Shown in pieces: positions 861 through 14,852 of a DNA stretch of 57,709 bases. The notes below the pieces were generated by a model, which saw nothing but the letters and a program-made list of their open reading frames with translations, was not told where the DNA came from and searched no databases. Every line of letters begins with the position of its first letter. Positions within the stretch are counted from its first letter, which is position 1. A program made the position numbers and the translations under genes. Where the stretch lies: IMG/VR virus record IMGVR_UViG_3300030107_000393, positions 1 through 57,709 of that record, one strand, 5' to 3'. Origin of the DNA: a virus.

Positions 861-882
861 ACATACATGACACATACATGAC
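861..882. repeat. 11-bp tandem repeat, two copies
   Basis: ACATACATGAC occurs twice in immediate succession (861-871 and 872-882), upstream of the small terminase. It may be a protein-binding site. Confidence 0.8.
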
Positions 883-993
883 GCAGGTAACGCTAAAGCG
901 TTGAATTTGTTACGTTTTTATCCCCTAAAAAAGGGGATTTTCCTCGTATATGCGTGTCTGCACGTTTTAGAACAATCACGTATACACGCCTAA

Positions 994-1021
994 ACAATAC
1001 CTTCGCAAAACGCAAAGTCAA
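994..1021 (-). promoter_or_regulatory. Possible sigma70-type promoter toward the terminase genes
   Basis: On the minus strand, TTGACT (1021-1016), a 16-base spacer and TATTGT (999-994) point toward the small terminase. The -35 matches consensus at five of six positions and the -10 is weaker. It lies about 230 bases from the gene, so assignment is tentative. Confidence 0.3.
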
Positions 1022-1067
1022 TCAAAACAATGACTTAGCTTTTTCACACAGGCAGACACGTGCGCAC

Positions 1068-1082
1068 TCCGAAGGACTTTAT
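1068..1082 (+). repeat. 15-bp leader repeat, copy 1
   Basis: TCCGAAGGACTTTAT is identical to 2702-2716. Both copies sit upstream of the first gene of a plus-strand unit. TCC-GAA-GGA is a small hairpin, extended in copy 2 to AGTCC/GGACT. Confidence 0.7.
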
Positions 1083-1119
1083 AGTTGGTGATTTCAACAA
1101 GCCAAATGGGAGAATCATC

Positions 1120-1500
1120 ATGGCACAATCAAAGAAACGTGCAGACGCACAAATCGACTTCGACACTTTCGCAACAGGCAACATCGCACGTGGGACTTCG
1201 TTGAAGTCCCTCACCGAGATGGTCAACGCCAACTCGTGTACCATTGCTGAAGCAATGGCGTACGCTGAGTTCATGGTCGCCAAATCGAAGCCCACTTCGA
1301 AGGGCTTCATCGCACGATGGACGAAGGTCGGTGCTGACCTTGCGAAGGGCAGTCTCGGTGACACGAACGTGTACTTTGCTAAGGCAAAGCCGATTGCGAA
1401 AGCAAAGCCGAAGGCTTCCGTTGCTCCTCAAGGTATCGCAAAACTGAGCAAGGCTCAGTTGGTGGACATCGTGCAACGCTTCATGGCTGAGGCTGAGTAA
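1120..1500 (+). CDS. Basic early-type protein of unknown function, monocistronic
   Basis: A 126-residue protein starting at ATG 1120 with GGGAGA six bases upstream; an in-frame GTG at 1060 has no such support. The C-terminal third contains an Ala-Lys-Pro stretch (AKAKPIAKAKPKAS), followed by a short helix (LSKAQLVDIVQRFMAEAE). This composition resembles nucleic-acid-binding or flexible linker regions. The gene stands alone: a non-coding region precedes it and a very strong terminator starts 7 bases after the stop codon. That suggests independent, perhaps high, expression. No family recognised. Confidence 0.75.
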   Translation: MAQSKKRADAQIDFDTFATGNIARGTSLKSLTEMVNANSCTIAEAMAYAEFMVAKSKPTSKGFIARWTKVGADLAKGSLGDTNVYFAKAKPIAKAKPKASVAPQGIAKLSKAQLVDIVQRFMAEAE

Positions 1501-1507
1501 CACAAAC

Positions 1508-1541
1508 GCAGAGACGCATAATGCGTCTCTGCTTTTTTTTT
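1508..1541 (+). terminator. Strong rho-independent terminator
   Basis: GCAGAGACGCAT (1508-1519) pairs perfectly with ATGCGTCTCTGC (1521-1532), followed by nine T residues (1533-1541) and a second T run. It ends the 1120-1500 gene. Confidence 0.93.
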
Positions 1542-1574
1542 GTTTTTTTTCACATATACGCATGGAGGTAAATT

Positions 1575-1712
1575 ATGCGACAACAACACAGACTACAACG
1601 CTTGATAACACGAGCAACGAACGACAACAACGTAATCATGTTGAAACGTGCCGAAAAACAAGCTAGGCTTTTAGAACGTAGACAACAACAACGCAACACG
1701 AGGAGACGATAA
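1575..1712 (+). CDS. Small Arg/Gln-rich protein
   Basis: A 45-codon ORF with ATG at 1575 preceded by GGAGG at 1564-1568. The product is very basic and Gln-rich (RQQHRLQRL at the start, RRQQQRNTRRR at the end), which suggests nucleic-acid binding. It ends two bases before the next gene. The 1905 gene has an almost identical initiation region (CATGGAGGTAAAT). No family recognised. Confidence 0.6.
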   Translation: MRQQHRLQRLITRATNDNNVIMLKRAEKQARLLERRQQQRNTRRR

Positions 1713-1713
1713 T

Positions 1714-1902
1714 ATGTTACTCGAAAAACTCAAAGCCATAGGCATTTTCATTATGTTCGTAATTGCAATTCATCTCATAATGCTCGTGTTCATCGAGTTC
1801 ATGGTGGGTTGTGGTTCGAAGACATACTACAACGATGGCACGTGGGAGACGATGCCATGCGTTTTCATTCCCTACGAAACAACAACAGGCACATGGAGGT
1901 AA
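1714..1902 (+). CDS. Small single-pass membrane protein
   Basis: A 62-residue protein with one transmembrane segment at about residues 8-32 (IGIFIMFVIAIHLIMLVFI...), followed by a short extracytoplasmic-type tail with two Cys residues. It is packed between small early genes: the upstream gene ends two bases before it, and the next starts just after its stop. Function unknown. Membrane peptides in this position may modify host envelope or block superinfection, but nothing here proves that. Confidence 0.65.
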   Translation: MLLEKLKAIGIFIMFVIAIHLIMLVFIEFMVGCGSKTYYNDGTWETMPCVFIPYETTTGTWR

Positions 1903-1904
1903 AT

Positions 1905-2189
1905 ATGCCAAAGTACACATTTGAATGGACGAGGACAACAACGTACTCGACAGTAATCGAAGCCGATAGTGAGACAGATGCTCACGAAGACTTGATGGAC
2001 GACATCAAGGCACAACAAACCGACTTCACGTCTGACATAACAGACGAGGTGTTTGACGTGCCAGAAGAGTCGAGTGGTGTCATGTTCACACAAGAAATGA
2101 GCGATGACGAAATCAAGAAAGCTATCGAGAACAACGACAACATCATCAAGGGTGTGTTCGACAAGTGGAAGAAAGGTAGCAACACATGA
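1905..2189 (+). CDS. Acidic small protein of unknown function
   Basis: A 94-residue protein starting at ATG 1905 with TGGAGG upstream. The first part looks like a beta-rich module (PKYTFEWTRTTTYSTVIEA). The rest is strongly acidic with predicted helices (SDDEIKKAIENNDNIIKGVFDKWKK). The stop overlaps the next gene by four bases (ATGA). Acidic small early proteins can act as DNA mimics, but there is no specific evidence for that here. Confidence 0.7.
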   Translation: MPKYTFEWTRTTTYSTVIEADSETDAHEDLMDDIKAQQTDFTSDITDEVFDVPEESSGVMFTQEMSDDEIKKAIENNDNIIKGVFDKWKKGSNT

Positions 2190-2677
2190 ACCGATTTCTC
2201 ATTGAACGCAACCCACAAAGCATAGCCAAATCACTATGCGACCAACACATTGTGAAGATGCCACTCGAAGAGGCACAGATGCTTTGCACGGCATTGTGGC
2301 ATCACAACGCAGAGTTCGCCTTTGAAAACAACTTGTACAAACCAGTACATCAGAAACACCCATGCACCTTGTGGTGCATGGAGACACGAGACAACTTCAA
2401 GTTCGCTTTCACGTTGTACTGGTGTATGTTGTTAGAATACAAGGTGCGATACCGAAGAATGCACGGAGCAAGAAAGCCGTTTCATGCAATCTTACAAGGA
2501 ATACATCACATTCCAAAGGGCAAAATTACAAAGCACCCTCAATGCTTTGGACAACACTACGAGTCCATCAAGACTGACGAGGACTATCCTATCAATGCGT
2601 ACAGAGACTTCTACAGACTAGACAAACTCTCCTTTGCGAGATGGAAACACAGTAGAAAACCTCATTGGTTAAACTAA
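2186..2677 (+). CDS. Phage family annotated as pyrimidine-dimer glycosylase-like protein
   Basis: A 163-residue protein matching the pattern of a family common in large phages: an N-terminal DxH[VI]VKM with a following E.AQML, a central YKPxHxxHPCxxW, and a C-terminal YRxFYxxxKxxxxxWKxxxxPxW. All are visible here: DQHIVKMPLEEAQMLC at about residues 19-34, YKPVHQKHPCTLW at about 52-64, and AYRDFYRLDK...RWKHSRKPHWL at the end. The family is often labelled a pyrimidine-dimer DNA glycosylase, but that activity is weakly supported. It starts on the ATGA overlap with the upstream gene. Confidence 0.7.
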   Translation: MNRFLIERNPQSIAKSLCDQHIVKMPLEEAQMLCTALWHHNAEFAFENNLYKPVHQKHPCTLWCMETRDNFKFAFTLYWCMLLEYKVRYRRMHGARKPFHAILQGIHHIPKGKITKHPQCFGQHYESIKTDEDYPINAYRDFYRLDKLSFARWKHSRKPHWLN

Positions 2678-2698
2678 CGCACAGACACACACCCACAA

Positions 2699-2716
2699 TA
2701 GTCCGAAGGACTTTAT
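2699..2716 (+). repeat. Hairpin with second copy of 15-bp leader repeat
   Basis: AGTCC-GAA-GGACT (2700-2712) followed by TTTATTA. Bases 2702-2716 repeat 1068-1082 exactly. It lies in the gap before the AAA+ operon and could be a weak terminator for the small-gene operon or a shared regulatory element. Confidence 0.6.
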
Positions 2717-2762
2717 TATAGAGTGACAGAATTTGTTGACCAACTATTGACACAATAGGGGG

Positions 2763-2791
2763 TTGACAAACTGTCATTCATGTATTACAAT
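2763..2791 (+). promoter_or_regulatory. Near-consensus sigma70 promoter of the AAA+/VWA operon
   Basis: TTGACA at 2763-2768 (perfect -35), exactly 17 bases, then TACAAT at 2786-2791 (five of six -10 matches). Start of transcription would be near 2798, about 18 bases before the ATG at 2816. A second TTGACA lies just upstream at 2746-2751, and TTGACC precedes that, so the -35 region is repeated and may be an operator. Confidence 0.85.
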
Positions 2792-2815
2792 CATCATTAC
2801 ACACAAGGAGGACTT

Positions 2816-4840
2816 ATGATTGATGAAAAGAGAGTTGCTCACTTACGAGCAGAACTAAATGAAATCATGGCTATGGACTACGGCAAGATGCGTAGTAAAT
2901 TACGTAGCATGGCTTCGCCAATACTTGCAAATCATGTTGCAGATAATGATGTCGACATTGCAGACATTCAGAGACGTTCCACAAACGCATTGAAAATGCC
3001 AAGCTACAAGCCAACTGTGAGTGGTGTCATCATGTCTTGTTCTATTCCTGCGTTGTACGACATCATCTTCAGCGAATTTGGTGCTAGTAACGTACTCGAT
3101 GCGATACTTGACCCATTTCGCTATGGCTACTCAAACTCAAGCAAGAGTGGCTACGACTTTGGCAGACACAAAGAGGTGTCAGACGAGTTGCACAAAAAGA
3201 GAATCGAGTATATTGGAACAACTGCACCTAATAAGAAATTGCCGTGGCGATACAGAAACGCACAAGACCTTGACGAGTTTGATGCCAACACTCTAGGTGC
3301 TAATGCATTGTTGGACATCATGTCGAAAGTTTGCCTTATGACAGATATGGAGGTCGACACAGACGACATCACTACTGCACTCGTTGAAGTGTTGAAGAAC
3401 TTTGCCGAGACGTGGGAAGTTCCAATGTTCGATATCAAGGCACAAGGTCTTCACGACCTCATGGAAAACGAGCCATTGATTGCAACTGAGTACAACCTCA
3501 AACACCCAAATTGGAAAGAGACGGAAGACAAACTCAACGACAGAGACGTTCCGTTTGATGGCATATGTTCTCATGTTGTGTACAATCTCGCACAAATGCA
3601 TTCATCTGTTGGGTTGAAAACTGAGCCAAAGATGGCGAGTGGTAAGGTGTTTCTTGGCTCAAAGGTAAAGAGTGCAAGCAAAGATAGCATCAACCTTGTG
3701 AACATGACGTTGAAGACAATCGGACTAGACGACATCGAGAAACTGTCTAACGACTATGATGACATGATGAGCAAGGTAGACGTTCAATCCGAGGAACTTG
3801 CAGAGATGGAGAAAAAGCTGAGAATTATGTCAGCAAGTACTGCGATTGCACCTAGCAAAGTCGAGGCAAGTGGTGAGATACCAAGTGGTAAGCAAGTAAC
3901 GAAGAAAGCACATGAGGTATTCACGATACCAAGTGCGAGCAAAAAGATGTTCGACTTCGACATTCTCACATGGGAATGGGATAAACCACACCCTTACGTT
4001 CCTGCGATTGACAGTGGATACATCTTCAGACCATCGAGTTTGTTGAGAGTTCTGTATGCATTGAACACCAACCAACGTGTGTATCTACATGGTCATACTG
4101 GTAGTGGTAAGACGACTTTCATCGAGCAAGTTTGTGCTTACACATCGACACCATTTATGAGAGTGAACTTCGATAGTGAGGTTACACGTATGGACTTGCT
4201 TGGCAGAGACGTGCTGACCACTGGTTCTAGTGGTGCTACGGAGTCCAAGTTCGTTGAGGGTATCTTGCCAAAGATGATGACGACACCATGTGTTGGTTGC
4301 TTTGACGAGATTGACTTCATCAGACCAGACGTTGCTTACGTGATGCAGAGAGCATTTGAAGGCAACGGATTGATGCTAACGGAAGATGGTGGACGTGTAG
4401 TTCAACCACACCCACAGTTCAGAATGGTCGCAACTGGTAACACAGTAGGTCAAGGCGATGAGTATGGTATGTATCAAGGTGCAAGACCACAGAGTATGGC
4501 GATGATTGACAGATTTACCATATGGGTCAACGTACCATACCTTGACAAAAAGCAACGTGATGATTTGCTCAAGAGCAAAGTTCCGTTGTTGAAAGACAAT
4601 CAACGTGAGCAACTTAATCAGTACGTTGGTGAACATCTTGAAGCATTTACTACATCGAAAGTGCTTCAGCCAATATCGCCACGTGGTATGCTATCTCTTG
4701 GCGATACAATAGTGAACTTCTGCACTTTGTTTAATGACAAAGATGCCGTGAATGAAGCACTTGAAGCCGTGATACTTGACAGATGTACGCAACAAGACAG
4801 AGCCGTACTCAAAGGTATCGTAAACAGAATCTTTTCATAA
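2816..4840 (+). CDS. AAA+ ATPase, MoxR/CobS-like
   Basis: A 674-residue protein. The start is ATG 2816, preceded by AAGGAGG. An earlier in-frame ATG at 2780 lies inside the promoter and is rejected. The C-terminal half is an AAA+ module of the MoxR/CbbQ/CobS class: Walker A GHTGSGKT at residues 426-433, Walker B with D497-E498 (CFDEID), and a sensor-1 segment (RMVATGNT) at about residue 540. The N-terminal 400 residues are alpha-rich and unassigned. Members of this class work with a VWA partner to remodel or insert cofactors into proteins. The partner is the next gene, 11 bases downstream. The client protein in this phage is unknown. Confidence 0.85.
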   Translation: MIDEKRVAHLRAELNEIMAMDYGKMRSKLRSMASPILANHVADNDVDIADIQRRSTNALKMPSYKPTVSGVIMSCSIPALYDIIFSEFGASNVLDAILDPFRYGYSNSSKSGYDFGRHKEVSDELHKKRIEYIGTTAPNKKLPWRYRNAQDLDEFDANTLGANALLDIMSKVCLMTDMEVDTDDITTALVEVLKNFAETWEVPMFDIKAQGLHDLMENEPLIATEYNLKHPNWKETEDKLNDRDVPFDGICSHVVYNLAQMHSSVGLKTEPKMASGKVFLGSKVKSASKDSINLVNMTLKTIGLDDIEKLSNDYDDMMSKVDVQSEELAEMEKKLRIMSASTAIAPSKVEASGEIPSGKQVTKKAHEVFTIPSASKKMFDFDILTWEWDKPHPYVPAIDSGYIFRPSSLLRVLYALNTNQRVYLHGHTGSGKTTFIEQVCAYTSTPFMRVNFDSEVTRMDLLGRDVLTTGSSGATESKFVEGILPKMMTTPCVGCFDEIDFIRPDVAYVMQRAFEGNGLMLTEDGGRVVQPHPQFRMVATGNTVGQGDEYGMYQGARPQSMAMIDRFTIWVNVPYLDKKQRDDLLKSKVPLLKDNQREQLNQYVGEHLEAFTTSKVLQPISPRGMLSLGDTIVNFCTLFNDKDAVNEALEAVILDRCTQQDRAVLKGIVNRIFS

Positions 4841-4851
4841 GGAGGTAAAAC

Positions 4852-6732
4852 ATGAAATCAGATTTATTTCAACACGAGGTTCGCAAGACCTCATCAGTAT
4901 TTGGTAGGAAAGAAGACGTAACAGTTGAGTTCCAAGGCGAAGAAGCCATGACTAACGGCTCGACTATCGTACTGCCAGCGATGGACTTCGAGAAGGACAT
5001 CAGCAAAAATGACCAAGCAATCATGCGTGGATATGTTGACCATGAGAGTGGTCACATTCGACACACAGACTTCAAAGCACTCAACAAGTTCGGCAAGGAG
5101 AATGAGGGCAACAAGTTGCTCTTGAACTTACAGAATGCTATCGAGGACATTTACTTGGAGAAGAAAGTGATAGACGAGTATGCAGGTTCGAAAGAGAACC
5201 TTGTTGCTACGTCTGGTTGTGTCAACGATGGCTTCCTTGAGTCCATAGGAACTGGCTTTGAGAAAGAGGCATTGGATAATCTCACGTTCATTACACCAGT
5301 TGCAATTACATGGGAGGGTCGCAAGCACTATGGCAACAATGGTGCAGACATATGCTTGGACTTGTTAAAGCCTCATGTTCGAAAGAAGATTGAGCGATGG
5401 ACTAAGAAGATTGACGATTGCAAGAACACCAAAGACGTGATTGCACTTGCCAAGAAGATTGAGAAAGAGATACGTGAGGAAGAGCCAAAGAAGGAGACGC
5501 CTAAACCAACAGACGTATCAGTAGGAAAAACGCCTGGCAAGAAAGGCAATGAGCCAGGCGATGGTGCTGAAGTATCCAAAGACGGAGACGGAGACGAGAA
5601 CAAAGGCAGTGGTGAACAGAAAGAGAGGTTCACACACAAACAAGGTGGTTCTGAGTGTTCGGAAGTTCCTGAAGAAATTCAGGAAGACGATGTGTATGAG
5701 GACTTCGAGTACAAGGAGATTGTCAAGGAGATTGGTAGGCAGAACTCAGCAGACCACAAAGACTTGCGTAGTGGCAAGGCATACTCAGCACAGAGTACTG
5801 CTCACGACAAATGGCATCACAGAACTGATGAACCTAACAAGTACAGAAATGCGTATGGTCACTTGAGATTGAAAGAGGGCAAGGCATCTCAATATGATAG
5901 GCATTTAACCATGATGCAAGGCGATGTGAATATGATGAGACGTTCCATCGAGAGAGCATTGTTCGCTAAGTCGCAGAGAGATTGGGACTTTGGCAAGGAA
6001 GACGGACGATTGGATAGTCGCAGGTTTCCGTCTGCTTTCAATGGCAAGCCAAATGTATTTAAGATGAAGTCTGATAGACGTGAGATGGATACTGCGTTGA
6101 CCATGCTTGTTGACTTGAGTGGTTCTATGAGTGGCGAGAAAGTGTTTGTCGCTCAACAATGTGCGATGGCGATTGCTGAATGTGTTGATAGAACTGGTAT
6201 CGCATACGAGATACTTGGGTTCAACACTGGTAGTGGCAGTGTGCCTGGCGTTCCACCAAGAAGTACAAGCTATGAAGACAGACTTACGTATACACGTTGG
6301 GAGAGCATTGATATGTGGATATTCAAGCACTTCAAGGAGAGATTGTTTGAAGCCAAGGGTGCTATCTCATGTATATCGCAGTGTAGTGGTGGTAACAATG
6401 TCGATGGCGAGAGTGTGCAGTATGCATATGACAGACTTAAAGAGAGGAACGAGCAACGCAAAGTGTTAATCGTATTGTCTGATGGTCAGCCTGCGTGTAG
6501 CACACACTACGATGTGTCATTGAGAAGACATCTCGTGGATACTGTGAAGAAGATTGAAGCAGACAAAGACACGGACGTTGTTGGTATTGGCATCAGAAAC
6601 AGTGCCGTGAAAGATTACTACAGCAATCACGTTGTAGTAGAGAATGTGGGAGAACTTGCCAAGAGTGCAATGGGTGAGTTGTCTCAGATACTGTTGGGTA
6701 CAAAGGTTGGTATCCACAAGAGGATTGCATAA
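4852..6732 (+). CDS. VWA-domain protein with HExxH motif, CobT-like
   Basis: A 626-residue partner of the AAA+ ATPase. The N-terminal domain contains DHESGH (H64, E65, H68), a canonical HExxH zinc-metallohydrolase motif. A long charged low-complexity linker follows at about residues 200-290 (EEPKKETPKPTD..., GDGDENKGSGEQKE). The C-terminal third is a von Willebrand A domain with an intact MIDAS sequence DLSGS (D421, S423, S425) and a later LSDGQP. The arrangement resembles the cobaltochelatase CobT family and phage relatives. No cobalamin pathway genes are present, so cobalt chelation is unlikely to be its job. AAGGAGG precedes the ATG. Confidence 0.82.
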   Translation: MKSDLFQHEVRKTSSVFGRKEDVTVEFQGEEAMTNGSTIVLPAMDFEKDISKNDQAIMRGYVDHESGHIRHTDFKALNKFGKENEGNKLLLNLQNAIEDIYLEKKVIDEYAGSKENLVATSGCVNDGFLESIGTGFEKEALDNLTFITPVAITWEGRKHYGNNGADICLDLLKPHVRKKIERWTKKIDDCKNTKDVIALAKKIEKEIREEEPKKETPKPTDVSVGKTPGKKGNEPGDGAEVSKDGDGDENKGSGEQKERFTHKQGGSECSEVPEEIQEDDVYEDFEYKEIVKEIGRQNSADHKDLRSGKAYSAQSTAHDKWHHRTDEPNKYRNAYGHLRLKEGKASQYDRHLTMMQGDVNMMRRSIERALFAKSQRDWDFGKEDGRLDSRRFPSAFNGKPNVFKMKSDRREMDTALTMLVDLSGSMSGEKVFVAQQCAMAIAECVDRTGIAYEILGFNTGSGSVPGVPPRSTSYEDRLTYTRWESIDMWIFKHFKERLFEAKGAISCISQCSGGNNVDGESVQYAYDRLKERNEQRKVLIVLSDGQPACSTHYDVSLRRHLVDTVKKIEADKDTDVVGIGIRNSAVKDYYSNHVVVENVGELAKSAMGELSQILLGTKVGIHKRIA

Positions 6733-6923
6733 TGGGAGTTAAGAAAGCATTTACCATACATAATCATTGGTTGCCTTTGTATCCCACAAGAGGAATGCAA
6801 TTTAGGTTTTGGTTTGAGGTTGCAAAGCGAGTGAACTACGCAAAAATCAAATCAGACAATTACGATAAAATTTCAACAATATGTAAGGAGGTCGACAATG
6901 ACTTTAAAGCAAGAAAAATCTAA
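6732..6923 (+). CDS. Small protein of unknown function
   Basis: A 63-residue protein whose ATG overlaps the stop of the VWA gene (TAATG). It is rich in aromatic and basic residues (IHNHWLPLYPTRGMQFRFWFEVAKRVNY), suggesting a compact fold. It overlaps the start of the next gene by 26 bases. No signal peptide, membrane segment or known domain is visible. Its tight coupling to the AAA+/VWA pair makes it a candidate accessory factor. Confidence 0.6.
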   Translation: MGVKKAFTIHNHWLPLYPTRGMQFRFWFEVAKRVNYAKIKSDNYDKISTICKEVDNDFKARKI

Positions 6924-7452
6924 AGCAACGAGTAAGATAGCGAAGAAAAAGCTAGAAGACTTAGGTGTAATCGAGAGGGAGCAGGCTTCTGCTTTGGGAG
7001 GAACAAATGAGAAAACTAATTCTACACCTACACCCTCTCTGTTTCAGTACACACAATCGAGGAAGAGTACAAGGAAAAGAACAAGTACTCAAACTTCAAC
7101 CTCACGTGAAGAATATCGCAAAAACTTTCCTTATGTCAAGACCCCATCTGTCTTTTCAAAGCCAAAGATAGACGAGAAGTTACGTGAGATTGCAGGTAAG
7201 TATGCTTTCCAACCCAATCCAAAGCAACCTATACACAACTTTGCATTCGCAGACGAGGCATTGATTACAGAGATGGTCGATGTTTTGTATCGCTATGTTG
7301 GAGACGTGCTTGAAGGCATGGACTTGATATACAGAGTTGACAATGAGTTGAAAGACAAGAACAGAACGAAGTTGCTTGAGATAATGATGTCGTGTGTTCA
7401 CATGGACGAAAAGGGTACTGTCTCTCAGTTCTTCTTCAAAGGAGATGTGTAA
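6898..7452 (+). CDS. Hypothetical protein with disordered N-terminus
   Basis: A 184-residue protein starting at ATG 6898 with AAGGAGG upstream. The first 90 residues are Lys/Ser/Thr-rich and probably disordered (STRKRTSTQTSTS). The second half looks like an ordered helical domain (ALITEMVDVLYRYVGDVLEGMDLIYRVDNEL). Its stop overlaps the next start (TAATG). Function unknown; operon position only. Confidence 0.7.
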   Translation: MTLKQEKSKATSKIAKKKLEDLGVIEREQASALGGTNEKTNSTPTPSLFQYTQSRKSTRKRTSTQTSTSREEYRKNFPYVKTPSVFSKPKIDEKLREIAGKYAFQPNPKQPIHNFAFADEALITEMVDVLYRYVGDVLEGMDLIYRVDNELKDKNRTKLLEIMMSCVHMDEKGTVSQFFFKGDV

Positions 7453-7943
7453 TGAATGTGATTGATAAGCTATTGAAACTGTATAACGTGCTAGACGTAG
7501 AGGAAAAGCAAGAGTTCCTCACAGTTGTATCACGTAATGCCAAGTCTGATGGAGTCATTACAGATGACGACATCAAGAAAGCAAGTGCCACACCTATCAA
7601 GGGTAGCACTGCCAAGTATCCATCAAAGGGTGGCAAAAAGCCACCCTTTTGGGTGAAAGAAATCAAGGAGATTGACGATACGAAGAGAGGTATGTTTCGT
7701 GTCGTTGGTGATTGGTTGTATGTGAACAAGCCATGTAGCGAGAGGAAACTATGTGTGCTTGGGTTCAAGTCCAACCATTCAGAACGCAAGACGTATGTGC
7801 TTGGGTTCACAAGCGATAGAGAGTTTGAAGTTGTGAACACTAAAACTGGTTACAAAGTACACGTATACTTCATGCCAAGTGGAGAGTACGATACGTTTGC
7901 AGACGTAGAGGCAGCAGCATCAAGGGAGTTAAAAAATGAGTAA
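7452..7943 (+). CDS. Hypothetical protein with internal 14-residue duplication
   Basis: A 163-residue protein. ATG 7452 overlaps the preceding stop and has GGAG upstream; the longer GTG-type start at 7392 would overlap the neighbour heavily and is rejected. An N-terminal helical segment (VIDKLLKLYNVLDVEEKQEFL) is followed by a beta-type region. In that region residues 96-109 (SERKLCVLGFKSNH) are nearly repeated at 110-123 (SERKTYVLGFTSDR). The coding sequence contains a perfect terminator-like hairpin at 7625-7650. Function unknown. Confidence 0.7.
   Translation: MNVIDKLLKLYNVLDVEEKQEFLTVVSRNAKSDGVITDDDIKKASATPIKGSTAKYPSKGGKKPPFWVKEIKEIDDTKRGMFRVVGDWLYVNKPCSERKLCVLGFKSNHSERKTYVLGFTSDREFEVVNTKTGYKVHVYFMPSGEYDTFADVEAAASRELKNE
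7625..7650 (+). terminator. Intragenic terminator-like hairpin
   Basis: AAAGGGTGGC (7625-7634), loop AAAAA, GCCACCCTTT (7640-7649), T7650. A perfect 10-bp stem ending in a T run, inside an open reading frame. Translation would normally suppress it; it could make the operon polar. Confidence 0.55.
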
Positions 7944-8151
7944 ACATACATTCTTAAAGGATAACATAGGATTTAAAGTACAAGACGCAGACGAGGGATT
8001 AGCATTTGAAGGCACGATTGGTGCTTTGAACGATGTCTTAGAAGAGAATTTCAACTGCGTAATATGTTACGATGAATCAACAATAATACACTCTGGCGAA
8101 ATTATGTATCATGGGTTCGCCATACAAGCCAAGGAGGATAACAATGAGTAA
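7936..8151 (+). CDS. Small acidic protein of unknown function
   Basis: A 71-residue protein whose ATG lies inside the last codons of the preceding gene (8-base overlap). It is acidic, with a beta-type pattern (FNCVICYDESTIIHSGEIMYHGFAI). No domain recognised. It overlaps the next gene's ATG by 8 bases, continuing the coupled string of small genes. Confidence 0.6.
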   Translation: MSKHTFLKDNIGFKVQDADEGLAFEGTIGALNDVLEENFNCVICYDESTIIHSGEIMYHGFAIQAKEDNNE

Positions 8152-8374
8152 AGGTTGGATAGTGAAGATGGAGATAACATCTTACGAAAAGATTTTGGTA
8201 TACACACCAAGATACGAGGACGCAGAGAGGTTGGCGAAAGAACAGATGAAAAAGTCTAGGTCTTACAACGACTCTGTTGTGATGGTAACAAGTCTGTCGA
8301 GTACGGAAGACGTCTCGCCTGACATCGAGAAAGATTTCTACGCAATCATAGGAGGAAGTAATGAAACAAAGTAA
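8144..8374 (+). CDS. Small protein of unknown function
   Basis: A 76-residue protein. ATG 8144 is preceded by AAGGAGG; the upstream in-frame start at 8111 lacks such support. The sequence reads as alternating strand and helix (KGWIVKMEITSYEKILVYTPRYEDAERLAKEQMKK), like small ferredoxin-fold or adaptor proteins. No family is claimed. It overlaps the next gene by 14 bases. Confidence 0.65.
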   Translation: MSKGWIVKMEITSYEKILVYTPRYEDAERLAKEQMKKSRSYNDSVVMVTSLSSTEDVSPDIEKDFYAIIGGSNETK

Positions 8375-9992
8375 GAAGAATACTCACAAGAAAGCGTCTG
8401 TCACACCGAGGTCAAAGAAAGGTCTTCACATGACAGGAATAAATCAAAAGCCTATCGCAAGGGTAGGCTTGTTTGATATGCCAAAGTTCTCGGACATCAT
8501 GCCATTCTTGAAAGAGGTAATACAAGAGAAAGCCACTGGTGTTAAGTTCAAGTCGTCTGACATTGAGCCACCAGTGACACATGAGCCACCATCTTTCAGA
8601 GACATAATGATGGACGATATTGAGGACGGCAGAATAACCTACAACAAAGCGAGAGGTTTTGCAGAAGCCAAGATAAGTGCTGAAGAGAGGGTTGTGAAAC
8701 AGATTGTTGCCAAGATGAACAAGCTAATCTTGCATGAGCAAGTATCGTATGCTTTAAAAAGACCGACCAAAGGCTTGCAGATATACAAACAGAACGAGGA
8801 AAGTAGGAAAGCCGTAAGGCGATGCCAAATGGACTTTACGAAAGCCAAGAAAGCAATCGTTCATGCGAGTCTGATGCAAGAGATTGTGCAGAGAGGTGCA
8901 GACTTTACTGCTGATGAAGCCGTGCTTGCCTTGTGGAACTCAGAGCCACCATCAGAGAACCTTTTCATTGAGTGGAACGAGCCAACGAAACAGTGGTGGC
9001 AACAGAAAATCTTTCATAATAAGTGGGGTATATGCAATGGAGACGTGCCATCTTCTATTGTTAATCCATCTGTTGGTTATTGGATACGCAAGACCGAAGA
9101 CGTAGACGGAATGTATTTGGGTGACAAGGTTTATACATTCGATAGCTTTATGTACTTTGCCAATGCTGAATATGACAAAGGCATAGAGCCACACATGGTC
9201 AAGCACGTAAACAATAAGGTCTACATACATGACATGAGAATGGTTGTGAACTTTGGAAAGCCTTTCGATGATGAGGTTATCAAGGAGTACAGACAGACAC
9301 CATTCGAACTTGAAAGGTATGGCAAGAAGTATGAGAGCGAGGAGAACCTAATGAAGAGAATGCAAGAGATATTGTATCCTCACGACCTTACGTTGGAGCA
9401 ATGCAAGCCGTCTGCCTTGAATGTTGATAGAGCATTGTGGGGTAACATATGGTCTTATCACAATAGCAAGAAGAGAAAAGACAAGAAAGATTGGGACTTG
9501 TTGAGAAGACACGTCATGTGGAAGCCTGGCATTGGACACGAGATAGACCCAATGAGAAACGAAACACAGAAGAGCAGGGGAGATTACAGTTCATTGCTTG
9601 GTTGTATGGGAGACATAAGATTTCTTATCTCGTTGTTGAATATATGGAACTATCCTAGACACGTTACTCAAGAAGTGAGACAGACGAAAGGCAAGAGAAC
9701 TCTGATACGTGGAGAAACTGTACCATCAGACGAGCATGTAGTTCTCAAGGTCAACCTTCCGAAAGATGAAGGTGTCAATCTGTACAGAACTGATGGTAAT
9801 GGTCAAGGTGGTGTTGGTACACCAAAGAAATATCACGAAGTTGATGCACATACGAGAGTGTATCCCACGTTGTACAATGACGATGGTTCTGTTAAGAGAG
9901 AAGGCTTTACCACAAGAGTTAAGGAACATGGTAGAGGTGACAAAAAACTTGGTATAGTTACCAAGGAATACAAACTAATGGGAGGTAAATAA
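8361..9992 (+). CDS. Conserved-type phage hypothetical protein, 543 residues
   Basis: The start is ATG 8361 with GGAGG upstream. The first 25 residues are Lys-rich, followed by an FSDIMPFLK segment. The middle region is helical. The C-terminal part resembles a module I recall from marine and rhizobial phages: strand-rich with KKYHEVDAHTRVYP, then REHGRGDKKLG-like charged pairs, then a terminal VTKEYKL. I know no biochemical function for that module. There are no catalytic motifs, membrane segments or signal peptide. It shares one base (the last stop base and the A of ATG) with the integrase gene, so it is co-transcribed with it. Confidence 0.75.
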   Translation: MKQSKKNTHKKASVTPRSKKGLHMTGINQKPIARVGLFDMPKFSDIMPFLKEVIQEKATGVKFKSSDIEPPVTHEPPSFRDIMMDDIEDGRITYNKARGFAEAKISAEERVVKQIVAKMNKLILHEQVSYALKRPTKGLQIYKQNEESRKAVRRCQMDFTKAKKAIVHASLMQEIVQRGADFTADEAVLALWNSEPPSENLFIEWNEPTKQWWQQKIFHNKWGICNGDVPSSIVNPSVGYWIRKTEDVDGMYLGDKVYTFDSFMYFANAEYDKGIEPHMVKHVNNKVYIHDMRMVVNFGKPFDDEVIKEYRQTPFELERYGKKYESEENLMKRMQEILYPHDLTLEQCKPSALNVDRALWGNIWSYHNSKKRKDKKDWDLLRRHVMWKPGIGHEIDPMRNETQKSRGDYSSLLGCMGDIRFLISLLNIWNYPRHVTQEVRQTKGKRTLIRGETVPSDEHVVLKVNLPKDEGVNLYRTDGNGQGGVGTPKKYHEVDAHTRVYPTLYNDDGSVKREGFTTRVKEHGRGDKKLGIVTKEYKLMGGK

Positions 9993-10990
9993 TGAAGTTA
10001 GTTGAGAGGAACGGACATCTATATGCTCATGGGTTTGTCAAGGATACGATGGGTAACACCCATCGTATTCGTAGGTCAACTGGATTTACTGTCGGACAAA
10101 AGACGTTAGCCAAGGAGAGAATGCGAGAAATATTCCGTGACGCAGGTAAGAAAGCAGACTTGGGTGCGAAGACGACAGTGGCAGACGCAATAAAACTTTA
10201 CCTGGGCAGCCGAAGTAAGCTGCCTGGTAGTACTGACATTGTGAATTTACGTCTGTTTGAGAATGAGTTTGGTCATAGATTTCTTTGTTCGTTGGGACAA
10301 GCCGAAGTCATGGATTATTTCAAGGGACGTGGAAACAAAGACAACAGTGTATCGAGAGAGATGACGTCTATCAAGTCGATGATTAACTACAACAACGACA
10401 TGGGTAGAAGTGTGCCAACGTATAAGCTGAAGCAACCAACGTCTGATGATGCACGAGTACGATGGCTTACAGAACGAGAGCGAGACAGAATGATTGTGTC
10501 TGCACGTGTATGTCTGCAACCGATACTGAGGTTCTTGTTTTATAGTGGTGCTAGACTTGGTGAGGCATTCAACCTGCGAGCAAGAGACGTTGAGACAACG
10601 TGTGTTGTTATCGTCTCTCGTAAAGGTGGACGTACACTGAGACGTAAAGTGCCAGTGCATTTTGTTACTTACATTAGTGACTATGGTTTCCGTGAGTTCA
10701 AGTCGAATGATGACATTGTATTTAGGTCAGACGATTACAACTCATGGAACAAATACAAGTTTTATAAGTACTTCAATGAAGCACTCGAAAAGGCAGACAT
10801 TGAGGACTTTAACCCCCATGATTGCAGACATACGTTTGCATCACATCTTGTGCAGAAAGGCGCAAGCTTGAGAGCCGTGGCTGATTTACTTGGACATACC
10901 TCTCTCGACATGGTAATGAGATACTCGCATCTTGCACCATCTCATTTACATGATACAGTAAACCTTATTAACAAACCAAAGGAGGATTAA
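9992..10990 (+). CDS. int: Tyrosine recombinase / integrase
   Basis: A 332-residue tyrosine recombinase, normal length for phage integrases. The N-terminal arm- and core-binding region spans about residues 1-150. The catalytic domain has all expected residues: R188 (SGARLGE), K211 (SRKGG), H276 and R279 (HDCRHTFAS), H302 (LLGHTS) and the nucleophile Y311 (MRYSHL). It should cut and join attP and attB through a covalent tyrosine-DNA intermediate. No directionality factor or attachment site could be identified nearby. It is the next-to-last gene of a long early-type operon, unusual for an integrase that normally has its own control. GGAGG precedes the ATG. Confidence 0.93.
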   Translation: MKLVERNGHLYAHGFVKDTMGNTHRIRRSTGFTVGQKTLAKERMREIFRDAGKKADLGAKTTVADAIKLYLGSRSKLPGSTDIVNLRLFENEFGHRFLCSLGQAEVMDYFKGRGNKDNSVSREMTSIKSMINYNNDMGRSVPTYKLKQPTSDDARVRWLTERERDRMIVSARVCLQPILRFLFYSGARLGEAFNLRARDVETTCVVIVSRKGGRTLRRKVPVHFVTYISDYGFREFKSNDDIVFRSDDYNSWNKYKFYKYFNEALEKADIEDFNPHDCRHTFASHLVQKGASLRAVADLLGHTSLDMVMRYSHLAPSHLHDTVNLINKPKED

Positions 10991-11332
10991 ATGGCAGAAG
11001 AAAAAGCCAATGGTGAAGACACCAGACCCAACACGATAGAGGTAGGTAAAATCTATCTTGTTGAGAAAGACGGAAAGCTTATCGGTACAGAGATATTGTT
11101 TGCCGATAACATCAGTACAATACAAAATGGTATGCAAGTATTAGACTTGTTGAGGAGTTCACTCAACTATAGTGGTTGGATATTCGAGACGTTAGCTAGA
11201 CTCGTACCACGTAAGTCAGCTTCTTCCGAACCATCTGTCGAAAGTGCCACTAGCAACGAGAGCAGTGCCGACAAAAAACAAGATGACGGCAATGCCGACA
11301 AGGATAACAAAGACACCTCCGTACAACCATAA
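10991..11332 (+). CDS. Hypothetical protein with disordered acidic tail
   Basis: A 113-residue protein starting directly after the integrase stop, with AAAGGAGGATTAA before the ATG. Residues about 15-75 look folded (IEVGKIYLVEKDGKLIG..., NYSGWIFETLARLV). The last 40 are Ser/Asp/Lys-rich and disordered. The 3' third overlaps the convergent minus-strand gene by 117 bases. The overlapping part encodes just the low-complexity tail, which would tolerate the double-coding constraint. Function unknown. Confidence 0.7.
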   Translation: MAEEKANGEDTRPNTIEVGKIYLVEKDGKLIGTEILFADNISTIQNGMQVLDLLRSSLNYSGWIFETLARLVPRKSASSEPSVESATSNESSADKKQDDGNADKDNKDTSVQP

Positions 11333-11698
11333 GTTTTCCCAAAACTTTTGTCGAGCGAGCATTCTTTCTCGCTCGGCTTCCTTCCTCTTACGTCTAATTT
11401 CAACACGTAATCTTAGCAGTTCTTGCCAAGCTTCATACCCCCTAGTTTCCATGATTATCTGACGCAGTTCGTTCTCCATGTCTTCAGCTTTTTTCTTGTT
11501 GATGAACGTGTCCATCGCCTCTTCATTTTCTGAGCCTGCGAATACACCACGTTTCTTTTTGTTGTGGTCATTGCGTAGAATATCGATGGCATCGAATAGT
11601 TTTCCGATGTCTTTGCCAAGGTCTTGCATCTCACGTCCTGCCGAGACGCCTGCCTTGATTGCCGTGTATGCGGCTAATGCTATACTAATTGGTTCGAT
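11216..11698 (-). CDS. Membrane-anchored phage protein, apparent ATC start
   Basis: A helical, coiled-coil-rich protein with one transmembrane segment near the C-terminus (LWLYGGVFVILVGIAVILFFVGTALVA). The first ATG, at 11629, gives 137 residues without a ribosome site. The open frame extends 23 codons upstream as IEPISIALAAYTAIKAGVS, which looks like the true N-terminus. The codon at 11698-11696 is ATC, placed 8 bases after AAGGAG. No ATG, GTG or TTG is available in frame between the palindrome and 11629. I therefore place the start at ATC 11698 (160 residues). Related marine-phage proteins begin with EPIS after Met, from memory. Function unknown. Confidence 0.7.
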   Translation of the reverse strand: MEPISIALAAYTAIKAGVSAGREMQDLGKDIGKLFDAIDILRNDHNKKKRGVFAGSENEEAMDTFINKKKAEDMENELRQIIMETRGYEAWQELLRLRVEIRRKRKEAERERMLARQKFWENLWLYGGVFVILVGIAVILFFVGTALVASGTFDRWFGRS

Positions 11699-11728
11699 TG
11701 TACACTCTCCTTAAAAGGAGAGTGTACA
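11699..11728. terminator. Perfect 30-bp palindrome, ribosome-site-bearing hairpin
   Basis: TGTACACTCTCCTTA pairs with its exact reverse complement: a 14-bp stem with a 2-base centre. It carries AAGGAGAG on both strands and ends one base before the ATC start at 11698. It could fold to hide the ribosome-binding site, bind a dimeric regulator, or terminate weakly; the T run is absent. Confidence 0.75.
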
Positions 11729-11750
11729 CTAGATGCGAGAGGTAGTCGTC

Positions 11751-11807
11751 TTACTTGTAGACGATTTTCTTCTTTTTCTTTTTACCTTTTTTCATAGGTC
11801 CTGGCAT
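11751..11807 (-). CDS. 18-residue Lys-rich micropeptide
   Basis: ATG at 11807 encodes MPGPMKKGKKKKKKIVYK and stop. It follows the 59-codon ORF by one base and has an AGG-type site upstream. Similar tiny poly-lysine ORFs occur between structural or accessory genes in marine podoviruses, from memory. It may bind DNA or the virion interior. Shortness limits certainty. Confidence 0.45.
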   Translation of the reverse strand: MPGPMKKGKKKKKKIVYK

Positions 11808-11808
11808 G

Positions 11809-11988
11809 TTACACCTGCTTTCTTAGTCTGCCACCAAAGACGTTGACCTTTTTCTTGTTAAGACTTGAGCCAAACTGTGATGGTAATTGTGAACGATTAC
11901 GAAATTGCAAACCTTGAAAAGCATTCTTCTTTGTGCCATTCATTTTCTGCGTTCCGAAGACAAGACCTTTGTTAGTTGAATAAGCCAT
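11809..11988 (-). CDS. Small basic protein of unknown function
   Basis: A 59-codon ORF from ATG 11988, with AAGGAGAAG upstream at correct spacing. The product is basic and rich in Asn, Gln and Gly (GLVFGTQKMNGTKKNAFQGLQFRNRSQLPSQFGSSLNKKKV), probably mostly unstructured. It lies 22 bases downstream of the Hjc-like nuclease and runs straight into the poly-lysine micropeptide. No known domain. Confidence 0.6.
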   Translation of the reverse strand: MAYSTNKGLVFGTQKMNGTKKNAFQGLQFRNRSQLPSQFGSSLNKKKVNVFGGRLRKQV

Positions 11989-12010
11989 ATACTTCTCCTT
12001 GTTTACACGT

Positions 12011-12400
12011 TTATGCTACAGAATTTTTGCTTTTGTGTCTACCAGTTAGTTCCAAGAAAGCGTTGTAATATTTCATAAAGTCTTTCAGTCTGAGTACGCA
12101 TAGACTTTCTTCAGTCGTCATTCTGTTTCGTCTGTTAATAACGATAGGCGTCTCTGGGCTATTTGTTTCCTGTGAATTTTTTTCTGCCTGTCTGATTGCG
12201 TCCATAAAGTTTAGACGCTCAACACGCTTGGCTTCTACAAACAAGTCTGGCACTCCGATTAAGTCTGCTCCACCATTAGAACTTACCTTCCCTCCACCAG
12301 ATAATGGCGCACGATATGCTGTGTTTATGTCTGCCTCTTCGTTGAAGTACGCTGCTAACTCACGTTCGAATCCGTCTCCTTTTCGTTTCTGTCTGCTCAT
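12011..12400 (-). CDS. Hjc-like PD-(D/E)xK nuclease, putative Holliday junction resolvase
   Basis: A 129-residue protein. The ATG at 12400 forms an ATGA overlap with the upstream gene; a longer start at 12430 is not needed. The order of conserved residues matches archaeal Hjc and phage relatives. An early Glu lies in KGDGFERELA (E12). A YRAPLSGGG loop follows, then D46 or D52 in GADLIGVPDLFVEAK, with E56-x-K58 as the catalytic pair. Such enzymes cut four-way junctions made during replication and recombination before packaging. It fits the recombination and primase genes of this phage. Substrate is inferred from family only. Confidence 0.75.
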   Translation of the reverse strand: MSRQKRKGDGFERELAAYFNEEADINTAYRAPLSGGGKVSSNGGADLIGVPDLFVEAKRVERLNFMDAIRQAEKNSQETNSPETPIVINRRNRMTTEESLCVLRLKDFMKYYNAFLELTGRHKSKNSVA

Positions 12401-12723
12401 AACTCTTCGTATCCCCTTTTCACTCTGCATTCAATGCAGTAGTACCAGTTCTTTGGTCGCTTCTTTGTGTCTCCACAATCCATGCATGGTCTTTGCCACG
12501 TCTTTTCTTCGTAAGTTCTCTTGACTTGGTACTTAGCTCCATCAAAATCTTGTAAGTTATGCCTTACAAGTATCCGTTTTATAGTGTCTACGCAACAATT
12601 AAATTTAGACGCAAGCTCTTTATGACTCAACCTGCTGTGATTAGCTTTAAGCCATGATAGATTTTCTTCGTCTACGTTCACTCTGCGTGGCATGAAAGAA
12701 AAATAACATAGGGGTATTGCCAA
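12397..12723 (-). CDS. HTH plus zinc-ribbon protein
   Basis: A DNA-binding type protein of up to 108 residues. The N-terminal half holds a helix-turn-helix pattern (LSHKELASKFNCCVDTIKRILVRHNL). The C-terminal half holds a Cys4 zinc site: CMDCG, then CIEC 16 residues later. The start is uncertain: TTG 12723 or ATG 12693 (MPRRVNVDEEN, 98 residues), neither with a clear ribosome site. I favour ATG 12693. Homing-endonuclease-associated and regulatory phage proteins share this layout. It is coupled to the downstream nuclease by an ATGA overlap. Confidence 0.65.
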   Translation of the reverse strand: MAIPLCYFSFMPRRVNVDEENLSWLKANHSRLSHKELASKFNCCVDTIKRILVRHNLQDFDGAKYQVKRTYEEKTWQRPCMDCGDTKKRPKNWYYCIECRVKRGYEEL

Positions 12724-12736
12724 ATCAAAAAAAATA

Positions 12737-12822
12737 TGTTACAACTACGTTTGTTCTTACGTGGTTGGGCGTAGCCCACCACGAGACAAAGAACAAGAGA
12801 CGAAGTTTAAGTAGTTGTAACA
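12737..12822. other. 86-bp nested inverted repeat between divergent genes
   Basis: The outer stem TGTTACAACTAC (12737-12748) pairs perfectly with GTAGTTGTAACA (12811-12822). Inside, TTGTTCTT (12751-12758) pairs with AAGAACAA (12789-12796). At the core, CGTGG-(T)-TGGGC (12760-12770) pairs with GCCCA-CCACG (12774-12783) around a GTA loop. AT-rich flanks surround it. This could be a structured RNA, a replication-origin hairpin, or a bidirectional regulatory element. No match to tRNA was found. Confidence 0.8.
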
Positions 12823-12827
12823 AATAA

Positions 12828-12962
12828 ATGACACAACAACAAGCCGAAGACAATCGTAAAAAGTACCCAGACATTGCAGAACTTATGGACAAGGTGAGGG
12901 TACATTTTCCTAACGCAAAGTTAGTTGCCGTGTATGTTGACGGAAAGAAACTAAAGTTCTAG
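12828..12962 (+). CDS. Lone plus-strand small protein
   Basis: A 44-codon ORF on the opposite strand to its neighbours, beginning five bases after the nested hairpin. Its sequence looks like a real compact protein (YPDIAELMDKVRVHFPNAKLVAVYVDGKKLKF), and I recall similar short proteins in marine phages. There is no clear Shine-Dalgarno, so translation may be leaderless or controlled by the hairpin. Its last 12 bases overlap the 3' end of the PrimPol-helicase gene on the other strand. Confidence 0.6.
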   Translation: MTQQQAEDNRKKYPDIAELMDKVRVHFPNAKLVAVYVDGKKLKF

Positions 12963-14852
12963 CCATTCATTTATAAGACGTAGAGGTCTTTGCAAAGTAT
13001 CAGCTATGCTCAGTGGGTCTGTGCCATCAAGAGCCATAGCTTTTGCTCTTTGCTTAGTTGATTGACTTGCGACAACACATCTTTCATCTTTCGTATTGTG
13101 CGAGCCAAAGCCAATCCATTGCACTCTGTCATGTATGTCTGTCCACTCTCTGACTTTCCCATACTTTATTTCCATTACCATATATAATCTATAGTCTGTC
13201 GGAAGTTTGCCCTCCAGTAGAGGAAACACTGGTCGCTCATAACTGCCGTCCCAGATAGCGGCATTTTGCTTTGCCGTGTCTTCGTCTTTGTACACTTGAG
13301 TTACTTTTATTTGTGTCTCCAGTACAGTCAACTGGTTGGTTGAGCCTGCCTCTCTACCCAGACCACCCTCAGACGGCTTGTTAGAATGGTGTATCATAAT
13401 GACAGCGAGTCCTGAGTTCCTGAGTTTGACAGCTAACTGGTTGACTCGACTCCATTCGTCTGCCGAGTTCTCCATCAAGCCAGGATAAGCTGACCTGATT
13501 GTGTCTATTATCACAACGTCTGGGTCTGAGAATGTTATCCATGCTTGTAACTCTTCAAGTCCCTCCCTCCTCTTCAAGTCTATTTCTTTTTTATCTACGA
13601 AAGGTGTCCATATGTTTAGCCTATCTTGCGTGTCTCCATGCATCTGCCTCATCTCAATCAGACGTCTAGCTATAGTAGACATGCCCATTTCAAAATCCAA
13701 ATACAACGCCCTCGCAGGTTTGCCGAGTTCGAAACAACCAAAGTATTTTCTACCACTACACAAAGCAGATATACAATGCTGAACAAACATAGACTTACCA
13801 TGTCCACTGTATCCATACACTTGCACGATTGTATTTGTGGGTAGCCAAGGTTCAATAAGATATACCTTACCCTTACTCTCCTCCATCAGTTGGTCTGCGT
13901 CCTTCATCTGGATTAGCTTTCTGGGTCTGTCTTTGAACTCCTCAGTCAATGGCTGACCAATAAAGTTTCCGTCTTCATCAAATCTTTCTGGGTGGTTTCG
14001 TCTCTCTGACTGTTCCATAGAACTGACAGTCGCTTCAAATTCTCTTTCGTCCAATGCATCTACAAAGAACTCATTCATAAAAGCAATGCCACGAAGGCGA
14101 AGCTCAGAGCCAAAGTATCCATTCAGTATGCACTCAGACACGTACCTCATAACACGTTCATTACGTCCATTGCTCATGCCAGATGGTATCTTTAATGTGG
14201 TTGGAAACTTTTCAGTCACGTACTTTGCAGTTCTATCCCACTCAGATAGCATTTCGTTAGGGTCAAAAGGTTTGACAGAACTCAAGTCGAGCTTTGAGAA
14301 ATGAAAGTCACCATCATTAATACGTTCTTTGAGTGACGGCTTCCAATCTTTCCAGACATTCATCTCATCATAATCGAATACGTCTGTTGGATAATCCCAT
14401 TCGTAATTCTTTGAAGGTGGTAGCAGTGCGTAACTGCCGTCTCCTCTAAAGTCTAACCCATTAATCTGGGGCCAGTCTGCACCTCTGCTGTTTACACCTG
14501 CTCTCGGACCTCTACGTATTCCGTCTTTTGGGTGTTCGAAGTAGAGATGTACGCCTCTCTTCGTCTTAACTTTAATAGGCGTAATCATCTCTGCTTCTTG
14601 AGAGGCTTTGAATGCGTTGTCATTATCACAATCAACAACAACAACGCCACTCACTTCACCAGTTACAAGTGCAATGTCGTAGTCTTCCCATTGCGTCCAC
14701 CATTGAGTAACCTCATCTTCTGTTGGCAGACGTTTCTGATATTCAAGCCATCTGATTGCAGGTCGTTTGCCTTCAGGCTTTATTGGTATGACAGACCAAC
14801 CACGCTCCAGATATTCTAACGCATGATTAAGCTTTACGTTTTCCTTTCCCAT
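12951..14852 (-). CDS. PrimPol-helicase (bifunctional primase/polymerase with RecA-like helicase)
   Basis: A 633-residue replication protein. ATG 14852 follows GAGGAGG at good spacing; the ATG at 14867 lies before the ribosome site and is rejected. The N-terminal domain is an archaeo-eukaryotic-type primase/polymerase: VVVVDCDND (D74, D76) and the KRGVHLYF segment with H102. The C-terminal domain is a RepA/DnaB-like ATPase: Walker A GYSGHGKS at 347-354, Walker B VVIIDT with D450, and a VIMIHHSNKP motif. It should prime and unwind at the phage origin and hand over to the host polymerase, since none is encoded here. Confidence 0.88.
   Translation of the reverse strand: MGKENVKLNHALEYLERGWSVIPIKPEGKRPAIRWLEYQKRLPTEDEVTQWWTQWEDYDIALVTGEVSGVVVVDCDNDNAFKASQEAEMITPIKVKTKRGVHLYFEHPKDGIRRGPRAGVNSRGADWPQINGLDFRGDGSYALLPPSKNYEWDYPTDVFDYDEMNVWKDWKPSLKERINDGDFHFSKLDLSSVKPFDPNEMLSEWDRTAKYVTEKFPTTLKIPSGMSNGRNERVMRYVSECILNGYFGSELRLRGIAFMNEFFVDALDEREFEATVSSMEQSERRNHPERFDEDGNFIGQPLTEEFKDRPRKLIQMKDADQLMEESKGKVYLIEPWLPTNTIVQVYGYSGHGKSMFVQHCISALCSGRKYFGCFELGKPARALYLDFEMGMSTIARRLIEMRQMHGDTQDRLNIWTPFVDKKEIDLKRREGLEELQAWITFSDPDVVIIDTIRSAYPGLMENSADEWSRVNQLAVKLRNSGLAVIMIHHSNKPSEGGLGREAGSTNQLTVLETQIKVTQVYKDEDTAKQNAAIWDGSYERPVFPLLEGKLPTDYRLYMVMEIKYGKVREWTDIHDRVQWIGFGSHNTKDERCVVASQSTKQRAKAMALDGTDPLSIADTLQRPLRLINEWLEL

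Follow-up and report, generated by a model that had tools for sequence, protein, structure and literature searches.

A CobS/CobT-like gene pair in the integrase arm of a CRP-810-type marine phage, with an intact-looking peptidase site predicted in viral CobT

Genes and features of the block

The window analyzed herein is the whole virus record IMGVR_UViG_3300030107_000393 (57,709 bases, G+C 39 %), and the subject is a block of ten + strand genes at 2816-11332 that opens with a CobS-like ATPase gene (cobS) and a CobT-like gene (cobT) and includes an integrase gene. The block belongs to a CRP-810-type marine phage and is ordinary for that family; the one surprise, as judged from sequence, is the protein-cutting site of the viral CobT, which looks intact. 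Given the MoxR-VWA pairing of the two proteins and this HExxH...ED site, we consider the odds slightly in favor of the pair being an ATP-driven chaperone or processing protease, rather than cobaltochelatase subunits, in the cobS-cobT-integrase arm of CRP-810-type phages. The features of the locus are as follows.

2700..2712, +, small hairpin AGTCC-GAA-GGACT ahead of the promoter (from the terminator-like list and the upstream sequences)
2763..2791, +, promoter-like box TTGACA-17-TACAAT, kept in relatives L004, L006, L008 and L009
2816..4840, +, CobS-like MoxR AAA+ ATPase, 674 residues (AAA_5 6.9e-14, phrog_249 3.5e-51, PDB 9ujv)
4852..6732, +, CobT-like protein, 626 residues (CobT_C 1.5e-36, CobT 3.1e-11)
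6732..6923, +, 63-residue protein with relatives behind cobT in many family members
6898..7452, +, 184-residue protein with relatives in further CRP-810-type family members
7452..7943, +, 163-residue protein with relatives in further CRP-810-type family members
7936..8151, +, 71-residue protein, close relatives only
8144..8374, +, 76-residue protein, close relatives only
8361..9992, +, 543-residue protein; remotely related proteins (21-26 % identity) are encoded between cobT and integrase elsewhere in the family
9992..10990, +, tyrosine recombinase/phage integrase, 332 residues (Phage_integrase 1.4e-26, phrog_1 3.6e-46, Xer-like solved structures)
10991..11332, +, 113-residue protein with relatives behind the integrase in many family members

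Adjacent genes are separated by at most 11 bases or overlap (11, -1, -26, -1, -8, -8, -14, -1 and 0 bases in gene order). The fourth value applies to a corrected start at 7452 and is otherwise -7; the ATG at this position is most likely the start of a former 183-residue open reading frame (ORF), which makes the product 163 residues long. A purine-rich ribosome site, mostly GGAGG-like, precedes every start in the block. The ATPase starts at 2816 behind AAGGAGG, and the ATG within the promoter box is not used. An earlier note on this DNA had described a contiguous series of MoxR-like ATPase, VWA/HExxH protein, unknowns and integrase; the series was confirmed, its order is conserved in relatives, and the nature of the first two proteins was borne out by AAA_5, CobT_C and the HExxH motif. 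Opposite the 113-residue gene, with a 117-base overlap, lies a 137-residue ORF on the - strand (11216-11629) that has a hydrophobic C-terminal stretch and no Pfam match.

A peptidase-like site in viral CobT

The CobT-like protein consists of an N-terminal HExxH domain, a linker and a C-terminal VWA/MIDAS domain. In an alignment of 30 viral CobT proteins (35 % mean column identity), H64, E65, H68, E98, D99 and E103 were invariant. HExxH followed by ED...E was found in all 77 loci that cover the region, out of 79 (L010 and L096 do not cover it). This is a zincin-type motif, with a downstream acidic ligand behind HExxH (H64, E65, H68, E98, D99). In the structural model of CobT (mean predicted local distance difference test score, pLDDT, 78.7), HExxH lies in the helix formed by residues 52-71 and E98-E103 in the helix formed by residues 88-109. 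The sequence and the model suggest that the N-terminal domain is a probable zincin-type metallopeptidase with an intact-looking HExxH...ED site. The solved-structure matches listed in the fold searches of this model cover the VWA part only, and no paper linking CobT or cobaltochelatase with HExxH was found among the matches listed, ranked by number of terms.

The CobT gene was identified in 13 named phage records, 12 from a set of 48 plus one cyanophage. HExxH is present in 11 of them: CRP-810, T5S1, SSU5, E. coli CMS-2020a, Klebsiella pJN2-26, three Rhizobium phages, ICP2 (in which V replaces E98), a Bacteroides phage and the cyanophage. Pfam gives neither a CobT nor a VWA match for the cyanophage "peptidase", which was counted as CobT-like on account of its place beside cobS, its alignment and the available part of PMC8651126. 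The HExxH-less CobT proteins of Pseudomonas ZY21 (L155 3044-5128) and Stenotrophomonas BUCTxx99 (L158 2852-4837) keep the MIDAS residues and represent a natural peptidase-dead variant. Listeria P70 and HHTV-2, in which the CobT gene was not identified, were excluded from the count; no HExxH was found in the 2 and 7 ORFs tested there, respectively.

The bacterial set comprised 46 distinct CobT ORFs, of which 44 came from the class of a Parasphingopyxis genome, presumably the Alphaproteobacteria. These 44 were the 30 top-scoring and 14 chosen lower-scoring ones among the 85 matching of 115 genomes. None of the 44 has HExxH. The aligned cellular columns mostly hold A or S at H64, R or K at H68 and often Q at D99, and E98 and E103 are mostly retained. 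Two bacterial CobT-like ORFs do bear HExxH, both as HESAH and both in one uncultured Desulfovibrio assembly (L099 3081-4859 and L102 634-2352); these could stem from viruses or represent an active form in cells.

Relationship to cobaltochelatase

The CobS-like protein aligns to solved cobaltochelatase CobS (PDB 9ujv) from residue 379, with about 380 residues preceding the aligned part. The CobT-like protein scores over the cut-off for Pfam CobT and CobT_C, the NCBI CobT model matches across its residues 13-609, and solved CobT matches from residue 228 or 190. Among viral models, the best matches of the CobT model were phage CobT-like proteins. In the fold search, the VWA domain matched NorD and midasin MIDAS with Z of 17-20. 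An AAA_5 ATPase stands beside a CobT_C VWA protein with invariant DxSxS, as in MoxR-vWA pairs.

These matches raise the question of B12 auxiliary genes, a reading in which viral CobST would join host CobN, insert cobalt and raise the supply of vitamin B12. It draws support from the two Pfam assignments, from cobaltochelatase CobS and CobT being the best solved matches, and from T5S1, whose genome holds a related pair together with a ribonucleotide reductase large chain. The available text of PMC8651126 regards the peptidase label of cyanophage CobT as erroneous and suggests that host CobN is used, and that of PMC11288001, on CRP-810, gives a B12-type annotation and calls the function in phages uncertain. 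However, CobN was found in none of the six virus records examined, and the ribonucleotide reductase large chain in T5S1 alone, the window being among the five without it. Both proteins also fall far under the NCBI equivalog cut-offs (TIGR01650, CobS, 157.3 vs 558.55; TIGR01651, CobT, 145.1 vs 759.05), and viral CobT retains a site that the 44 cellular CobT proteins lack. This residue pattern favors a MoxR-vWA-metallopeptidase architecture over the use of host CobN, and a role in B12 supply appears unlikely.

Gene order in relatives and in other phages

Gene order was compared in 78 loci, 77 of which came from one CobT-alignment scan, the other being L010; L096, the second piece of the L005 contig, was omitted. 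In all 68 loci with a cobT start past base 1500, cobS starts at most 3.5 kb upstream of cobT on the same strand. An integrase follows downstream on the same strand, 1.2-5.4 kb off, in 36 of the 42 loci that have at least 6.5 kb of downstream sequence. The six loci without it are L065, L066, L067, L068, L075 and L094, four of which lie on contigs of 43.7-44.9 kb, similar in size to the genome of the Cobavirinae phage T5S1 (45 kb). A frequent order is cobS, cobT, the relative of the 63-residue gene, a pyrimidine-dimer glycosylase gene, the relative of the 184-residue gene, sometimes that of the 543-residue gene, that of the 163-residue gene, a LuxR-like gene, the integrase and the relative of the 113-residue gene. 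The window departs from it in that the glycosylase lies upstream of cobS and the 543-residue gene directly before the integrase; no LuxR-like gene was detected in the window. The glycosylase-like gene, which in many relatives stands after cobT, occupies 2186-2677 (+); its Pyr_excise match is below the cut-off (21.2 vs 23 bits), and it is 29 % identical to CRP-810 gp09.

The annotated neighbors of the pair were inspected in 14 phage records, a small, non-random sample with close kin in which many neighbors are unlabelled. Replication or recombination genes are annotated within about 4 kb of the CobS/CobT pair in 11 of the 14 records (the other three being CRP-810, HHTV-2 and the Bacteroides phage), a pattern that we take as a hint. 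Among the 13 records other than CRP-810, an annotated integrase lies near the pair in one, Klebsiella pJN2-26, and a gene labelled merely "recombinase" in another, BUCTxx99; the integrase link is therefore mainly a family trait. The expectation of the same gene order in other phages held inside the family, whereas in other phage records the pair is mostly without an integrase.

A MoxR-vWA chaperone or peptidase could also fold or trim structural proteins late in infection. Such a function in virion assembly is what the available part of PMC7824862 proposes for group 2.2 jumbo phages, which have the same architecture, and that text cites a MoxR-vWA role in archaeal virus tail assembly. The location of the genes argues otherwise: in both the window and CRP-810 the structural genes lie on the opposite strand, away from cobST, and a gene labelled structural occurs within about 4 kb of the pair in none of the 14 annotated records, many neighbors being unlabelled. 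We consider a role in assembly quite unlikely.

The phage and its family

The window is collinear with Roseobacter phage CRP-810 (57,692 bases; OR671924), with identities, in the same order, of 81 % for capsid, 81 % for portal, 76 % for an AAA ATPase, 73 % for PrimPol and 73 % for TerL. TerL reaches the right end of the window and its two CRP-810 neighbor genes sit at the left end, which suggests that the contig represents nearly a whole genome. With these collinear core genes and with cobS, cobT and integrase present, the window falls into the CRP-810 type. In CRP-810, cobS, cobT and the integrase, together with genes related to the 63-, 184-, 163- and 113-residue ones, stand in the same order as in the window; the window differs in an added 543-residue gene plus two small ones ahead of the integrase, in the glycosylase upstream of cobS, and in that neither a LuxR-like gene nor tRNA-Thr was detected.

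The available part of the CRP-810 paper (PMC11288001, mSphere 2024) reports cobS and cobT in almost all family members, an integrase in 217 of 251 uncultured CRP-810-type genomes and polymerase chain reaction evidence for integration of CRP-810 at a tRNA-Thr gene. Because cobS, cobT and integrase are already reported there for the family, the block is a described family trait. The earlier view of an undescribed module, with an unexpected linkage between the ATPase pair and an integrase, does not hold, this linkage being ordinary for the CRP-810-type family. The phage of the window is probably temperate. Megablast of the block against phages and a search of Rfam gave no match. A scan of genome contigs confirmed two of 30 stretches, one a Desulfovibrio CobT and the other a Parasphingopyxis CobT; it thus yielded no CRP-810-type prophage.

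Identity to the CRP-810 counterparts is 30-58 % for the cassette proteins compared, vs 73-81 % for the five core proteins and 60-61 % for the Holliday resolvase and the YqaJ nuclease; some further proteins are low too. This faster divergence of the arm, together with the conflict systems driven by MoxR-vWA pairs (PMC7159879, in the part available), would be compatible with a conflict module for defence or counter-defence, as the earlier note had guessed, but such a module is very unlikely: no positive evidence emerged, the PADLOC matches are weak and mostly to ATPase parts (IetA and BrxF, both ATPase; ZorC; a type I specificity subunit), neither Pfam nor PHROGs nor PADLOC recognized in the block any of the known third components of MoxR-vWA ternary systems (VMAP, iSTAND, FtsH or beta-propeller), components not being searched individually, and the near-universal presence of the pair in the CRP-810 family is unlike that of most cargo genes.

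Elsewhere in the window, a 3181-residue ORF (21908-31453, -) spans the positions of CRP-810 gp34-gp36, where there are three ORFs. It matches ART-PolyVal, an ADP-ribosyltransferase domain found in polyvalent proteins, marginally (31.5 bits vs a cut-off of 31.2), and bears an HEVAH motif at another place. A DNA methylase gene lies at 18200-19288 (+; N6_N4_Mtase 1.5e-53).

Promoter and transcription

The box at 2763-2791 is the sole 11-of-12 promoter match in the window, where 2.25 +/- 1.95 are expected from 20 first-order Markov simulations, so that the quality of the match is at chance level; in positions 1-14000, 25 promoter-like sites were observed vs 26.3 expected. Both hexamers and the 17-base spacing are kept, despite differing flanks, in the very closely related L004 and L006 as well as in L008 and L009, whose CobT proteins are about 73 % identical to that of the window. 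Because of its position and this conservation, the promoter is believable. The whole block is likely read as one transcript from it. Against a single transcript stand three + strand terminator-like hairpins inside the block, at 4281, 8448 and 10587, and some 9-of-12 boxes within coding sequence that are likewise kept in relatives. The single near-perfect promoter of the earlier note is upheld as regards the presence and conservation of the box, but not as regards the match by itself.

An imperfect inverted repeat, TGACA-AAC-TGTCA (2763-2776), includes the -35 box, is kept in L004, L006, L008 and L009, and is possibly an operator. CRP-810 has a hairpin upstream of its cobS similar to that at 2700..2712. 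As a repeated element, the hairpin AGTCCGAAGGACT gave 2 matches at up to 2 mismatches vs 0.76 expected.

Integrase, attachment site and the 543-residue protein

The catalytic motif of tyrosine recombinases is R, HxxR, H and Y. The integrase is an ordinary member of this group (PF00589 1.4e-26), with GARLGE, HDCRH and GHTSLDMVMRY in its sequence. tRNA-Thr was found in seven of the 12 loci scanned, and in six of these seven it lies directly behind the integrase: in L002 (9328-9402), L040, L043, L046, L049 and L052 it is tRNA-Thr (GGT) on the opposite strand. None was found in L004, L008, L009, L027, L051 or the window, which contains no tRNA at all, so the attachment site of the window may differ. 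A T-loop pattern, used as a clue to the phage attachment site (attP), gave one match, inside a gene, vs 0.92 expected.

In the family of the 543-residue protein, a C-terminal VRRGHWR motif occurs in eight of 12 aligned members and is not kept in the subgroup of the protein itself. None of the 12 members had a PHROG match. The sole doubtful Pfam match, Peptidase_C13 in one of 12 members at 0.0039, was judged a chance one. The model of the protein is poor (mean pLDDT 52).

Proposed role and significance

An early-acting chaperone or protease is the reading that we prefer. The CobS-like and CobT-like proteins would form a MoxR-VWA complex in which the VWA/MIDAS domain of CobT holds a protein for remodeling by the AAA+ ring, while the N-terminal domain of CobT may bind metal and cut peptide. 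CobST would have a phage or host protein as its client, perhaps in the early phase of infection, and the integrase would serve lysogeny. Nothing useful was found in the literature on the timing of cyanophage cobS transcripts, and no relevant paper on CobNST cryo-electron microscopy was among the matches listed.

Several observations weigh against this reading. The whole viral CobT aligns to cellular CobT models, and homology alone therefore fits a chelatase role. One scan pattern held RGYVDHE, so that the choice of the viral contigs in part favored H64 and E65; this bias does not extend to H68 or the acidic residues. HExxH has been lost in ZY21 and BUCTxx99, and the peptidase is therefore not essential for retaining the pair. 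No zincin stood among the fold-search matches listed for CobT, for which the whole model was searched, an absence that rules nothing out. Two supports are weakened: the 44 proteins count as cellular CobT irrespective of CobN adjacency, and the neighbor count comes from a small, non-random sample with close kin, in which pJN2-26 has an integrase. The hairpins inside the block weaken the single transcript.

The chaperone or protease reading has its nearest described counterpart in the group 2.2 jumbo phages, where, according to the available part of PMC7824862, a MoxR AAA+ ATPase adjoins a vWA protein whose N-terminal part is a metallopeptidase domain, an architecture also predicted for the window; these belong to a different phage group, and the likeness is to the architecture as that source describes it. 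Cobaltochelatase CobS and CobT (TIGR01650, TIGR01651; PDB 9uka, 9ujv) share homologous ATPase and VWA domains with the viral pair, CobT over nearly its full length, but the cellular CobT proteins examined lack HExxH, viral CobS is longer by a large additional stretch at its N-terminus, and no CobN was found. The cyanophages, SSU5-like phages, ICP2, the Rhizobium phages and Cobavirinae T5S1 have a CobS/CobT-like pair with HExxH in most of those inspected; in these other tailed phages cobT frequently precedes cobS, and the pair mostly adjoins replication genes.

Viral cobS and cobT are commonly classed as genes of B12 metabolism. The split in HExxH, present in most viral CobT inspected and in none of the 44 presumably alphaproteobacterial ones, turns the disagreement between PMC7824862 and PMC8651126, as far as their available parts go, into a one-residue experiment. 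More broadly, and as a tentative proposal that we hold to be rather improbable as yet, viral "CobST" across several phage families would be a virus-encoded ATP-driven metalloprotease that processes a replication or regulatory protein of phage or host, and the peptidase site of cellular CobT would have decayed on recruitment to cobalt chelation. If this is true, many virome genes called "B12 auxiliary genes" would have been misread.

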